From Desulfitibacter sp. BRH_c19 (lineage in GTDB: Bacteria; Bacillota; DSM-16504; Desulfitibacterales; Desulfitibacteraceae): a stretch of 64,000 bases of DNA. Below, in pieces: positions 12,391 to 17,459 of the stretch. How positions within the stretch are numbered: position 1 is the first letter of the stretch; each line of letters opens with the position of its first letter. The stretch is taken from contig LOER01000003.1 in assembly GCA_001515945.1 (NCBI GenBank), positions 62,001 to 126,000 of the forward strand, written 5' to 3'. The position numbers and the translations under genes were made by a program. Below the pieces are notes generated by a model. The model saw only the letters and a list, made by a program, of their open reading frames with translations. It was not told the DNA's origin and ran no database searches.

Positions 12391-15300
12391 ATGCTAAACA
12401 TACCTATTAAACTCAAAAAATTATTAAATGGTTCTCTATATAGAAATTCGATGTTTCTAGTTTTAAGCAGAGTTCTGAATTTGACCTCTGGCTTTTTTTT
12501 CTGGATCATAGCAGGAAAGCTTTACCCTACTAAAGATGTTGGACTAGGAACTGCATTGATATCTATATTAGGTCTTATTATGCTTTCATCAAGATTTGGC
12601 TTTGACTTTTCTTTGATTCGTTTTATTAATAAATACGATAAAGCTAAGGTGTTTAATACAAGTTTATTTATTACTACAACGGCAGCACTAACTATTAGTT
12701 TTTTATATAAATTGATTGAAAAAATATTTGTTTTAGAGCCCATGTTAAACTTAGACTATACCATCCTATTCATTATTGTTGTATTAGCTAATTCGATCAC
12801 TTTAATAACAGGAAATATGTTTTGTGCCTTAAGAAAAGCCCACTTGTTTTTTATTCAAAACTTTATTTTATCTCTGAGAATTATATTATTATTTCCCTTA
12901 GTCATTTTTAATTGCTTTGGGATTTTTTTAGCCCTTGGTATAAGCTATTTTCTCTCCTCTGTTTTTGCCTTATGGATATTAGATAAAGAAACTCAAATAA
13001 ACTTATTGGACATTGACAGAAGTTTTGTTAATGAATCCTATAAATTTTCTGCAGGAAACTACTTCTCCAATATTTTATATGAAGCACCAGCATTAGTTTT
13101 ACCTATCATGGTTTTACATTTATTAGGTGAAGATCAAGCAGCCAAGTTTTATATGGCATTTATGCTCGGCAATATAACCATTATTGTACCAAGTGCTTTA
13201 AGCACCTCATTATTTGTTGAAGGTAGTAATGATAAACCATTGAAAGAGAATATACCAAAAGTCATTTTAGCTGTATTTGTTTACTTAATCCCACTAGTAA
13301 CAGCATTTTGTTTATTCGGTAAAGGTATGCTGGGATTTATCAACAAAGAGTATATGGATGCCATGAATCTATTAAGGTTAATTGTATTATCAAGTTTTTT
13401 TGCTGCACTACATTTGATTTTTATGACGGTTCAGAATGTTAGGATGAAGGTACATAATAACGTGATAATAAACCTAATTCGTTTTCTTCTGATAGTAGGG
13501 TTTAGTTATTTATTTATTATTAATTTCAAGTTAATAGGAGTTGGTATGGCTTGGATTATTAGTTATGCCCTGTTACTTCTAGTAATAATGTTAATAATTT
13601 ACCGGGATAAAACAATAAAGATTGATAGTCGGTGGCTACTAAATAGATTTAAATATCAGTATAAAACAGTCTATATGCATACTATATCTGCCTTCAGAAT
13701 ATTATTAAGTACTGTAGGTGCTTTCATTTTTCAAGGAGGTAAAACCAAGGTGCCCCATTTCTTTGGTGAAGATAATAGATTCAGGTTAACCGGGAGAATA
13801 ATTGCATACCTACTTATCTGCCTGGCCATTGGGGGAATATCATTTCCATTGTTCCTTGGGAAATACAATTTGTCTCTTTTAGGAGTTTATCTAGGTATAC
13901 CAATGATATGTGCGCCTATAGTCTGGTTAAAAATAAAAGAAAAACAGGAAAGTGGTTTTAGTCTAGATAAGAACATCATGTATTGCTTTGCAATATTATT
14001 TTTACTATGTTATTGCCTCTCAGTATACGTTTTGCATGCTTTTGCTGTCAGGACATTGGTCTATTACATTATAGTAACAATTATGGGCTTTTTAATACTA
14101 TGTCAAATAGTATTTTTTGATAATTTAGATAATAAGCAAAAAGTCGTAATATTAATGCAAATCTCAGGTTTATTATTAAATATTATCTGGGGTGTTAACT
14201 TAAAGTACTACTACTTCATTGGTAGAACAGACACATTGGTGCATTCCTGGCTTATACAAAATCTAATAAACCAAGGACAAGTCACAGAAATTTTCAATTT
14301 TTATCAAGCTTTTCCGTTATGGCACATTTTATGTACCATTATTTATAAGCTTTGTAATGTTACGCTAGCTCCCTATAAAGTAATGTTTATAACTAATGGT
14401 CTAATCTATAGTATGTTACCAATCATGGTCTATTTAGCAGCAGATAAAATAACAAACAATACAAAAATAGCATTTTTATCAGCTTTATTTATGTGTTTTA
14501 ATCCAGATGTAATTTTTTGTGGTATGTATTCTATCCCAAGGAGTGTTGTGGCTTGTATCGTGGTCCTTCTGATGCTTTTATTGCTACATAAAAAGAATTC
14601 AGTAAAATCATTATTATTAATCGTAGTAACTATTGCAACAGTAATGTACCATCCTGCTTCAATGCCATTTATATGGTTAATATTTTTGTTAATATATGTC
14701 TTTCAAAAAATTTATCAAGTAGATAAGGAAGACTATATTATTAGCTTTAATTATTTAATAACTGTTTTTTTCGTTACAATTACATATTGGATGTATTATG
14801 GAGAAAAAGTCTTTAATGCCATTGTTAAAAATTTTTATTCTAGTGGTCCTAGTGGGGTCTTAACCAAGTCTATCGTTAACACCCCGCTAAATGAACTGTT
14901 TAACTATCTTCAATATAGTCCACTATTATTTTTCCTTATATGTGGAGTTTTATGGGCTGTTATGTCAGAAAGAATTAAAAATGCAAACAAACTGTTTTTC
15001 ATACTGGCTTTGGTTTTAGTATTTGTTACTTTTCCTGGACCTGCTTTACTTATTAACAAATTTGCGAGAAATCTAAACTTGTTTAGATTTGGCGAATACT
15101 CGTATTTCTTTATTTCTCTAGCTGGTGCATCAGGATTTTATATTTTATTTTACAAGCTTAGAAAGCATTTTAGAGTTTGTGTAGTTTTTATATTCTTGAT
15201 CATGGCCTTTTTATCTGTCTCTAACGACTTTACTGCCTCGGATAACCCAGTGGTCAAAAGGCCTTTTTATACCTTTTACCTCAAAGAAAAAGAAATAATT

Positions 15301-15648
15301 TCCTTAAATCATTTAGCAGAAGTAGTTGAAGGTTATATCATGTCTGATTTTGCAGCTGTTCGGTATTTAGAAAACTCCAGTTACGCTCATAAGAGTCATA
15401 TACTTGAAATAGATAATGAAGGAAGCCGGATACTTACTAATGACAATAGTGATATCTTGGTCATTAGAAAAGAAGAGTTAGCCACGAGACCTTTAAGGCT
15501 GTTTAGCTCTTCCAATGGGGATTTTCAACTAGATCCCTCTTTTACATCGCACATAGATTACTATTACCATTATCTACCTGTCTGGGATACATTAGATTCC
15601 CTAAATATAATTTATGATTCAGGTGCTGTGGTGGGTTTAAAGTATTAA
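12391..15648 (+). CDS. Flippase (Wzx-like) fused to a polytopic GT-C/polymerase-like membrane protein
   Basis: 1085 aa. Residues 1 to about 430 look like an oligosaccharide flippase of the Wzx/MOP type (SRVLNLTSGFFFWIIAG, about 12 membrane segments). From about 460 a second hydrophobic unit follows with about 12 segments, and residues about 950-1085 form a soluble tail, an architecture like GT-C transferases or polymerases. GRTDTLVHSW (about residue 611) sits in an extracytoplasmic loop where GT-C enzymes keep acidic residues. The junction at about residue 446-454 contains a perfect ribosome site and an in-frame GTG (13750), so this may be two genes whose stop has been lost. Either way it should export and perhaps polymerise or transfer the glycan. 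I do not recognise the second half as a named family. Confidence 0.75.
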   Translation: MLNIPIKLKKLLNGSLYRNSMFLVLSRVLNLTSGFFFWIIAGKLYPTKDVGLGTALISILGLIMLSSRFGFDFSLIRFINKYDKAKVFNTSLFITTTAALTISFLYKLIEKIFVLEPMLNLDYTILFIIVVLANSITLITGNMFCALRKAHLFFIQNFILSLRIILLFPLVIFNCFGIFLALGISYFLSSVFALWILDKETQINLLDIDRSFVNESYKFSAGNYFSNILYEAPALVLPIMVLHLLGEDQAAKFYMAFMLGNITIIVPSALSTSLFVEGSNDKPLKENIPKVILAVFVYLIPLVTAFCLFGKGMLGFINKEYMDAMNLLRLIVLSSFFAALHLIFMTVQNVRMKVHNNVIINLIRFLLIVGFSYLFIINFKLIGVGMAWIISYALLLLVIMLIIYRDKTIKIDSRWLLNRFKYQYKTVYMHTISAFRILLSTVGAFIFQGGKTKVPHFFGEDNRFRLTGRIIAYLLICLAIGGISFPLFLGKYNLSLLGVYLGIPMICAPIVWLKIKEKQESGFSLDKNIMYCFAILFLLCYCLSVYVLHAFAVRTLVYYIIVTIMGFLILCQIVFFDNLDNKQKVVILMQISGLLLNIIWGVNLKYYYFIGRTDTLVHSWLIQNLINQGQVTEIFNFYQAFPLWHILCTIIYKLCNVTLAPYKVMFITNGLIYSMLPIMVYLAADKITNNTKIAFLSALFMCFNPDVIFCGMYSIPRSVVACIVVLLMLLLLHKKNSVKSLLLIVVTIATVMYHPASMPFIWLIFLLIYVFQKIYQVDKEDYIISFNYLITVFFVTITYWMYYGEKVFNAIVKNFYSSGPSGVLTKSIVNTPLNELFNYLQYSPLLFFLICGVLWAVMSERIKNANKLFFILALVLVFVTFPGPALLINKFARNLNLFRFGEYSYFFISLAGASGFYILFYKLRKHFRVCVVFIFLIMAFLSVSNDFTASDNPVVKRPFYTFYLKEKEIISLNHLAEVVEGYIMSDFAAVRYLENSSYAHKSHILEIDNEGSRILTNDNSDILVIRKEELATRPLRLFSSSNGDFQLDPSFTSHIDYYYHYLPVWDTLDSLNIIYDSGAVVGLKY
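13750..15648 (+). CDS. Possible internal start: stand-alone second membrane domain of the fusion
   Basis: Alternative or additional product of the fusion gene, not a separate locus. AAGGAGGT at 13733-13740 stands nine bases before an in-frame GTG at 13750, giving a 632-residue polytopic protein that begins just before its first membrane segment. The upstream flippase would then be about 453 aa, a normal Wzx size. Whether the internal start is used, or only a fossil of the pre-fusion gene, cannot be decided from sequence. Confidence 0.4.
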   Translation: MPHFFGEDNRFRLTGRIIAYLLICLAIGGISFPLFLGKYNLSLLGVYLGIPMICAPIVWLKIKEKQESGFSLDKNIMYCFAILFLLCYCLSVYVLHAFAVRTLVYYIIVTIMGFLILCQIVFFDNLDNKQKVVILMQISGLLLNIIWGVNLKYYYFIGRTDTLVHSWLIQNLINQGQVTEIFNFYQAFPLWHILCTIIYKLCNVTLAPYKVMFITNGLIYSMLPIMVYLAADKITNNTKIAFLSALFMCFNPDVIFCGMYSIPRSVVACIVVLLMLLLLHKKNSVKSLLLIVVTIATVMYHPASMPFIWLIFLLIYVFQKIYQVDKEDYIISFNYLITVFFVTITYWMYYGEKVFNAIVKNFYSSGPSGVLTKSIVNTPLNELFNYLQYSPLLFFLICGVLWAVMSERIKNANKLFFILALVLVFVTFPGPALLINKFARNLNLFRFGEYSYFFISLAGASGFYILFYKLRKHFRVCVVFIFLIMAFLSVSNDFTASDNPVVKRPFYTFYLKEKEIISLNHLAEVVEGYIMSDFAAVRYLENSSYAHKSHILEIDNEGSRILTNDNSDILVIRKEELATRPLRLFSSSNGDFQLDPSFTSHIDYYYHYLPVWDTLDSLNIIYDSGAVVGLKY

Positions 15649-15667: not shown

Positions 15668-16681
15668 GTGAGAATAAAAGTAAAAAATGAATTTCCATTA
15701 ATTTTTATATATTCCTTGATTTTAATAATAACATTTACTGATTTTAGCATAATCCTTTTAGGTTTAGGATTGCCATTTGTATTGTTACTTCCGGGTTATT
15801 CATTATCAGTTGCTCTTTTTCCTTGTGCTTCTGATTTAGAAGGACTTTATAGATTAGCCTTAAGTTTTGGCTTAAGTATTGTAGTTGTACCTGTCATAGG
15901 GTTATTTCTAAACTATACTCCTTGGGGAATTATTCTTTTTCCGGTATTTGCTTCCATAATAATTTTCATTATGATAATGGCTCTGCTGGCTTGGTACAGG
16001 AGGAAGAAGCTTTCTGATGCGGACCGGTTCATGTTAAATTTTGATTTTAATTTTCAATGGTTAAAACAGTCTGCAGTAGTAGCGTGCTTACTTCTTATGG
16101 TAGTTACATTTGTTTATATACTGGCATCACCAAAAGCCGTGGACAGATTTACGGAATTTTATATTATTGGTCAGCAAGGAATTGCTGCTGATTATCCCCA
16201 AAAGTTAGAAGTTGGAAAATACGAAGAGCTTATTGTTGGTGTCATAAATAATGAACATCAGCGGGTTATCTATCAAATAGAAGTAAGGATGGACAGTCAA
16301 TTAGTTAAGACAGTATCTCCTATTGTATTAGAACATAGAGAAAAATGGGAGAACGTTGTAGCATTTAAAGCAGATAAACCTGGTGAAAATGTCAAATTAG
16401 AATTAATGCTTTTAAAAGAGAATAATTCCAATGAAATGCCTTACCGAAAGCTTCGGCTGTGGGTTAATATTAGCCAACCGGAACTAAAACAACTATCTAA
16501 TCTAATATATAAAGTGCAAAGTGGGGATTCATTAAACTTAATAGCTGATAAATTTGACATAGATTTAAATGAGTTATTTTTGATAAATCCTCAAATTGAA
16601 AACCCTAATAAAATACATCCTGGACAGGAAATTGTTCTACCAGTTAAAGTGAAAGGGGAATTGATTACTGTCCAACACTAA
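15668..16681 (+). CDS. DUF1616 membrane protein with C-terminal LysM domain
   Basis: 337 aa from GTG 15668, behind a TAAGGAGT site. The N-terminal half has four hydrophobic segments with the DUF1616-type LPFVLLLPGYSLSVALFP region. A further membrane segment (about residues 138-155) is followed by an extracytoplasmic domain that resembles the DUF1616 tail (SPKAVDRFTEFYIIG). Residues about 280-327 are a LysM repeat (YKVQSGDSLNLIADKFDIDL), which would bind peptidoglycan or another GlcNAc polymer. This pairing suggests a link between the glycan machinery and the wall. Directly downstream of the flippase fusion, same strand. Confidence 0.75.
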   Translation: MRIKVKNEFPLIFIYSLILIITFTDFSIILLGLGLPFVLLLPGYSLSVALFPCASDLEGLYRLALSFGLSIVVVPVIGLFLNYTPWGIILFPVFASIIIFIMIMALLAWYRRKKLSDADRFMLNFDFNFQWLKQSAVVACLLLMVVTFVYILASPKAVDRFTEFYIIGQQGIAADYPQKLEVGKYEELIVGVINNEHQRVIYQIEVRMDSQLVKTVSPIVLEHREKWENVVAFKADKPGENVKLELMLLKENNSNEMPYRKLRLWVNISQPELKQLSNLIYKVQSGDSLNLIADKFDIDLNELFLINPQIENPNKIHPGQEIVLPVKVKGELITVQH

Positions 16682-16714: not shown

Positions 16715-17459
16715 ATGCCCTATCTTATATTATTTATTTTGCGCTATCATTGCCATAAACGAACTCGTATTTACTTATTGGAGCCAAAAACTGGGTATAT
16801 TATTTCATATATTATTACTTGGTGCCCTTTTAGTACCATGTTATTTTATATCTGATAAAAGCAAACCTTGGTTATACATGGCTTTAGCACTTGCTCCGCT
16901 AATAAGAATATCCAGTATTTCATTACCCTTGGCGGAGATTACTTTTATCCTATGGTATCCTATTATAAGCGTACCATTACTTGTTGCAGCGTTTTTAATA
17001 AAGAGCCTAATGGGAATCAGCTTTCGTGAGATGGGGTATTCTTTCAGTAATTTCCAAGCCCAATTAATTATAGGAACGATTGGTATTCCTTTGGGGGTAA
17101 TTCATTATCAAATCTTAAAACCTGTGTATAGTGATTTAAACTTGGTTGCAAATGAACTATGGTTTACTGTTTTAGTACTTATAATCTGCACCGGGTTTCT
17201 AGAAGAGTTCATATTTCGAGGGATATTGTTTCGGGCATCAGTGGAAGTAGTAGGAAATAAAGCCTTATTATATGTAAGCTGTATTTATTCAGTGATGCAT
17301 ATTGCTCATGGCTCTTTAGTGAATGTTATATTTGTTTTTTTGGTAGCAATACTGTTTACAAAAATATTAATCTGGCAAAAAAATATCATTGGGATATCTC
17401 TAGCTCACGGCTTAATGACTGTTACTTTATACGTCATTTGTCCGGCTTTACTTTACTAG
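16715..17459 (+). CDS. CAAX/CPBP intramembrane protease, apparent frameshift near the 5' end
   Basis: Polytopic protease-like protein (CPBP/Abi family). Motif 1 EEFIFRG (EExxxR), motif 2 around MHIAHG and motif 3 LAHGLMT are present, so the catalytic part is intact. The simple ATG at 16878 gives 193 aa but has no ribosome site and lacks one membrane helix. The upstream frame is open from 16701 and encodes a good hydrophobic helix (CAIIAINELVFTYW). An ATG with a strong GGGGAG site lies at 16715 but one frame off; removing one T from the run at 16737-16740 joins them into about 247 aa. So either a +1 frameshift mutation, a sequencing error or slippage. Function in the glycan locus unknown. Confidence 0.7.

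Follow-up and report, generated by a model that had tools for sequence, protein, structure and literature searches.

Wzx-type flippases of the MOP superfamily (e.g., WzxE) and the GT-C oligosaccharyltransferases STT3, PglB, and AglB are the described proteins to which the two parts of the gene reported here come closest. In the window, i.e., the whole 64-kb stretch of DNA that was analyzed, a flippase that is like the Wzx/MOP flippases in its Pfam profile (Polysacc_synt) and in its fold differs from them in being fused C-terminally to a second polytopic membrane protein. To our knowledge, it is not settled whether Wzx-type flippases hand over lipid-linked sugars directly to the next enzyme, and a phrase search of open papers found no description, within that literature and those phrases, of a Wzx-type flippase naturally fused to a polymerase. 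A related arrangement is known from the bifunctional lipid synthase and flippase MprF, whose single polypeptide contains, as separable domains, a flippase and an enzyme acting in the same lipid pathway (PMC2774229, PMC8131360), whereas the families involved are unrelated to those of the window gene and the substrate is another one. The window gene very probably originated from a lineage-specific fusion of two adjacent, co-directional surface-glycan genes in which the start of the second gene was retained, and it represents a clear case of an operon-gene fusion of this kind.

Architecture of the fused gene

The features of the locus are listed in Table 1. In the one assembly of this genome, the fused ORF is a single uninterrupted frame. 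By profile and fold, its first part is a Wzx-type flippase, for which translocation of a lipid-linked glycan is predicted. Specifically, residues 17 to 263 match Polysacc_synt (PF01943) with 38.8 bits, the cut-off being 28.2 bits, and the fold, which is predicted confidently for approximately residues 19 to 406, has the lipid III flippase WzxE as its best PDB match (9g9n; E value, 3.2e-7; TM-score, 0.80 on the target), followed by MATE and MurJ. Both the homology to the separate flippases of relatives and the confident fold stop at about residues 406 to 412. The sequence-only reading had given the flippase a length of 453 aa, described as a standard size; this was wrong, as the flippase accounts for about 406 to 412 aa and the remainder up to residue 453 is linker.

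Table 1. Features of the fused gene, its internal start site, and the adjacent gene (window coordinates)
Feature	Positions	Strand	Basis
Fused ORF, 1,085 aa, MOP-superfamily (Wzx-like) flippase and large polytopic membrane protein	12391-15648	+	ORF list; PF01943; partners separate in relatives
Flippase part, residues 1 to about 412	12391-13626	+	Fold; end of homology to separate flippases
Linker, 41 codons (123 nt), probably former intergenic DNA	13627-13749	+	No counterpart in separate flippases; low pLDDT
Shine-Dalgarno (SD) sequence AAGGAGGT	13733-13740	+	Read directly from the bases
Spacer of 9 nt between AAGGAGGT and GTG	13741-13749	+	Read directly
In-frame GTG	13750-13752	+	Relatives' separate second genes have their start codons at the aligned position
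Second part, 632 aa, unclassified family, proposed GT-C-type lipid-linked-sugar transferase/polymerase	13750-15648	+	Weak fold matches; relatives
DUF1616 protein, next gene	15668-16681	+	PF07760, E value 1.6e-61

For the second part, sequence searches of Pfam, NCBIfam, and PDB returned no match. When known GT-C family profiles were considered, there was no Pfam match at or near the cut-off in any of 12 members and no NCBIfam match in the two that were tested. The eight best fold matches all belong to STT3, PglB, or AglB, none of them being significant (best E value, 0.05) and all being derived from a poor model (pLDDT, 51). Like these oligosaccharyltransferases, the second part consists of numerous membrane helices and, C-terminal to them, a soluble part, and it contains a conserved FIGRTD...H motif in a loop; unlike for established members of this group, the relationship lacks any Pfam, NCBIfam, or PDB sequence match, and the fold comparison stays at E values of 0.05 or worse. 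We consider it reasonably likely that the second part is a GT-C-type enzyme, which would use the lipid-linked sugar delivered by the flippase. An assignment of active-site residues from the predicted structure was discarded, the model being too poor for this purpose.

The linker between the two parts has pLDDT values mostly between 26 and 37 in the predicted structure and is without counterpart in the separate flippases of relatives. Its length resembles that of the gaps between the flippase gene and the second gene in relatives with separate genes (about 50 to 175 nt), and it is probably former intergenic DNA that is now read through in frame. By the inferred topology, the linker would connect two cytoplasmic protein ends. 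An additional membrane span at about residues 430 to 450 was considered and rejected, with a hydropathy peak of 1.34 lying below the usual value of 1.6 and with a topology that such a span would break.

The frame of the linker is the only one of the three that is free of stops, and a linker of 41 codons was open by chance in 1.2% of dinucleotide shuffles, which makes a single miscalled stop unlikely. These results bear on an assembly or base-calling artifact, according to which the two genes are in truth separate and their stop was removed by one miscalled base or indel. Such an error would agree with the separate genes of the nearest relatives, with the broken frames at several related draft loci (L004/L019, L013, and L005/L016), and with the existence of a single assembly, in which one former stop could be a base error. 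It is opposed by the linker, open throughout and in one frame only, and by the isolate genome L014, in which these two genes became fused separately (see below), and we judge it very unlikely.

A translation start within the reading frame

The junction reads, in order, TTC AAGGAGGT AAAACCAAG GTG, and the bases thereby confirm the earlier observation of AAGGAGGT nine bases ahead of an in-frame GTG in the 1,085-residue ORF; 453 codons separate the ATG at position 12391 from this GTG, i.e., (13750 - 12391)/3. The strength of the site was compared with that of in-frame ATG, GTG, and TTG codons located well within 152 ORFs with a minimum length of 200 aa, which were taken from the 64-kb window and approximately 175 kb of further genome sequence (about 239 kb in total). 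Duplexes were scored with the universal 16S anti-SD sequence, which may differ from the host's own 16S tail. With -12.5 kcal/mol, the duplex at GTG 13750 ranks first among 1,508 internal in-frame start sites (runner-up, -11.6 kcal/mol), and only 2.6% of the ordinary starts in the same genome scan match its SD strength. The distance from the end of GGAGG to the GTG is 10 nt, the spacing observed in this genome ranging from 3 to 13 nt with a mode of 7 to 8 nt, and GTG is the start codon in 6 of 72 ordinary SD-led starts. The mRNA fold around GTG 13750 is more stable than at 83% of ordinary starts, and a local RNA fold near it is able to pair the SD sequence. An internal promoter or terminator was sought at the junction, and nothing above chance was found there.

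A chance origin, in which two Gly codons of an ordinary fused protein merely resemble an SD sequence and have nothing to do with a start, would be compatible with the frequency of AAGGAGGT, an 8-mer that is not rare in the window (4 occurrences versus 2.5 expected). We regard this as extremely improbable, given that the site is the strongest of the 1,508 internal ones and coincides with the homologous position at which the separate genes described below begin.

Relatives with separate genes

Homologues were searched for in 398 genomes of the phylum and, with a three-row alignment as the query, in one genome of each species. A scan of genome contigs with the single protein as the query gave nothing, and the three-row alignment found 12 loci instead. 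Overall, about eleven distinct loci were found, with roughly 45 to 55% identity to the second part. The viral contigs that were scanned contained no homologues, and both examined genomes of the same genus are without the flippase part and the second part.

In at least five distinct relatives (L009, L010, L011/L012, L017, and L019), a flippase gene and a second gene are separate, adjacent, and on the same strand; L009 equals L002, L017 equals L003, L019 equals L004, and L011 and L012 are nearly identical. Most of the separate second genes are preceded by a good SD sequence of their own (-9.3 to -12.2 kcal/mol; a weaker one, -5.9 kcal/mol, is found in L013), and their starts align with GTG 13750. 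For L019 this alignment is ungapped, with VPHFFGEDNRF from GTG 13750 facing MKAFLKDNNRF at the L019 start. Because the separate second genes of the relatives begin at the aligned position, the segment from 13733 to 13752 is, on the strength of this alignment, the retained translation start of a once-separate second gene. A more distant homologue, 28.6% identical, is encoded in the archaeon Natronorubrum bangense by a stand-alone gene, with a flippase gene alongside on the opposite strand and a DUF1616 gene near. Separate genes are likely the ancestral state, since those of the relatives are adjacent but separate and the archaeal gene stands alone.

The comparison with relatives that had been suggested along with the first description of the site thus revealed separate genes, rather than a conserved fused protein lacking a site at the junction in all of them. 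The suggestion of two once-separate genes whose stop codon was lost holds for the two genes, as indicated by their separate, adjacent occurrence and their aligned starts, but not for stop loss as the exact event, for which an indel or a deletion is equally possible. The alternative offered there, a system producing the fusion as well as a free second domain, may apply in addition and is taken up below.

The family of the second part occurs in Bacillota and archaea (L018 and the N. bangense plasmid, L042), and its genes frequently have flippase and DUF1616 genes as neighbors. The separate flippase of L010 is extended at its C terminus by about 138 residues that match no Pfam family (L010:3515-3931) and end just before the second gene. 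Several loci show damage: L013 combines a broken flippase (L013:2562-3863) with an intact second gene; in L019, the second gene is frameshifted (L019:3986-5933); and in L016 (L016:1-1801, contig of L005), a deletion joins the middle of the flippase to the second gene. The last was not counted as a fusion, the join being due to a deletion and the frame being broken. On account of these three cases, the locus either decays often or is often misassembled in draft genomes.

A second, probably independent fusion of the two genes

Among other Clostridia-like bacteria, the isolate genome of Lachnoclostridium phytofermentans KNHs2131 (L014) also has both parts in one ORF, which comprises 1,064 codons and is located within a contig of 585 kb; a comparable fusion in an Anaerocolumna MAG (L020) runs up to the contig end. 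A third candidate, a 1,005-aa "fused" ORF (L015), was not counted, as about 100 consecutive N occupy its junction. The fusions in L014 and L020 resemble the window gene in combining the same partners, likewise with the flippase first, in one ORF, but differ from it in their separate origin in the tree, in a shorter linker without clear homology, and in the decay of the old internal start, the start codon being gone in L014 and an ATG being kept in L020 with a weak SD sequence of -4.9 kcal/mol. Trees were built from the second part, from the flippase, and from both joined. L014 and L020 group with the separate-gene locus L010 at 99 to 100% support, with the window gene outside, and a single clade of all fused rows is rejected (AU test, P = 5.6e-43; P = 1.6e-50 with L015 included); the fewest changes on the tree are two. 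As the tree sets L014 and L020 apart from the window gene, the fusion of flippase and second protein most likely arose twice, independently. One ancient fusion that was split later in several lineages could account for fused forms at two places in the tree, but it needs at least three changes versus two, and every split must have created a stop, an SD sequence, and a start at the same place. The stand-alone gene of the archaeal relative and the linkers of the two fused groups, which have no clear homology, argue in the same direction, leaving this scenario highly improbable.

Between L014 and L020, the dN/dS of the linker is 1.9, calculated from few sites, versus 0.27 to 0.29 in their two domains, from which it follows that the linker sequence seems to drift freely while its frame stays open, a pattern that a free tether would be expected to show. 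Lys and Arg are abundant in the L014 linker, consistent with a cytoplasmic placement.

Proposed origin and products of the window gene

In the ancestor, a Wzx-like flippase gene and a gene for a multi-span membrane enzyme would have been adjacent and co-directional in a surface-glycan cluster. Once the stop between them was lost, by stop loss, indel, or deletion, the flippase frame came to continue through the former intergenic stretch and on into the second gene. The main product would then most likely be the 1,085-residue fusion, in which the flippase delivering lipid-linked sugars may be tethered to the sugar-using enzyme via the cytoplasmic linker. Some free 632-residue second protein might also be made from GTG 13750, given an intact and very strong start site; judging from the sequence, some internal initiation at this codon is plausible. 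Bacterial N-terminal proteoforms from internal starts are established (PMC11005335).

Going further, selection might keep the internal start so that the fusion and the free 632-residue protein are made in a set ratio, a possibility to be taken seriously that we nevertheless favor less than its contrary. It is suggested by an SD sequence and an in-frame start codon at the domain boundary, by an SD strength that beats about 97% of ordinary starts at normal spacing, by the ancestral position of the start codon, and by the decay of the site in the other fused lineage (L014 and L020), so that persistence is not obligatory. Persistence of the site, however, is predicted equally well by a young fusion, and close relatives for a conservation comparison are lacking; in addition, local folding of the RNA is able to mask the SD sequence, and GGA GGT also just codes for Gly-Gly.

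As a lineage-specific fusion with a retained start, the window gene would offer a caught-in-the-act view of operon genes fusing. If a flippase has indeed been fused in nature twice, independently, to the membrane enzyme encoded next to it, this would be evidence for physical coupling and would supply ready-made constructs for examining it. A broader idea, that the repeated, independent fusion of a Wzx-type flippase with the enzyme consuming its product reflects joint action of the two as one complex and that the retained start sets the ratio of tethered to free enzyme here, is speculative and in our view rather unlikely.

Gene neighborhood

The neighbors of the fused gene comprise two FemAB/GNAT-like proteins, a MurG-like glycosyltransferase (weak), a polysaccharide deacetylase-like protein, the DUF1616 protein, a CPBP protease, and a putative WecB-like epimerase, judged from its sequence; these surroundings fit a glycan cluster. 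A DUF1616 homologue is also present 3' of the second gene in several relatives. The DUF1616 protein of the window has a C-terminal LysM domain (residues 281 to 325), which is absent from the 278- to 282-aa DUF1616 proteins of relatives, and by this comparison the cluster apparently contains another lineage-specific fusion, DUF1616-LysM. Near the DUF1616 gene, positions 16878 to 17459 encode the CPBP-family intramembrane protease, which shows a weak likeness to the archaeomyxosortase MrtA (E value, 2e-4, far below the cut-off) and may serve the glycan cluster as a sorting partner.
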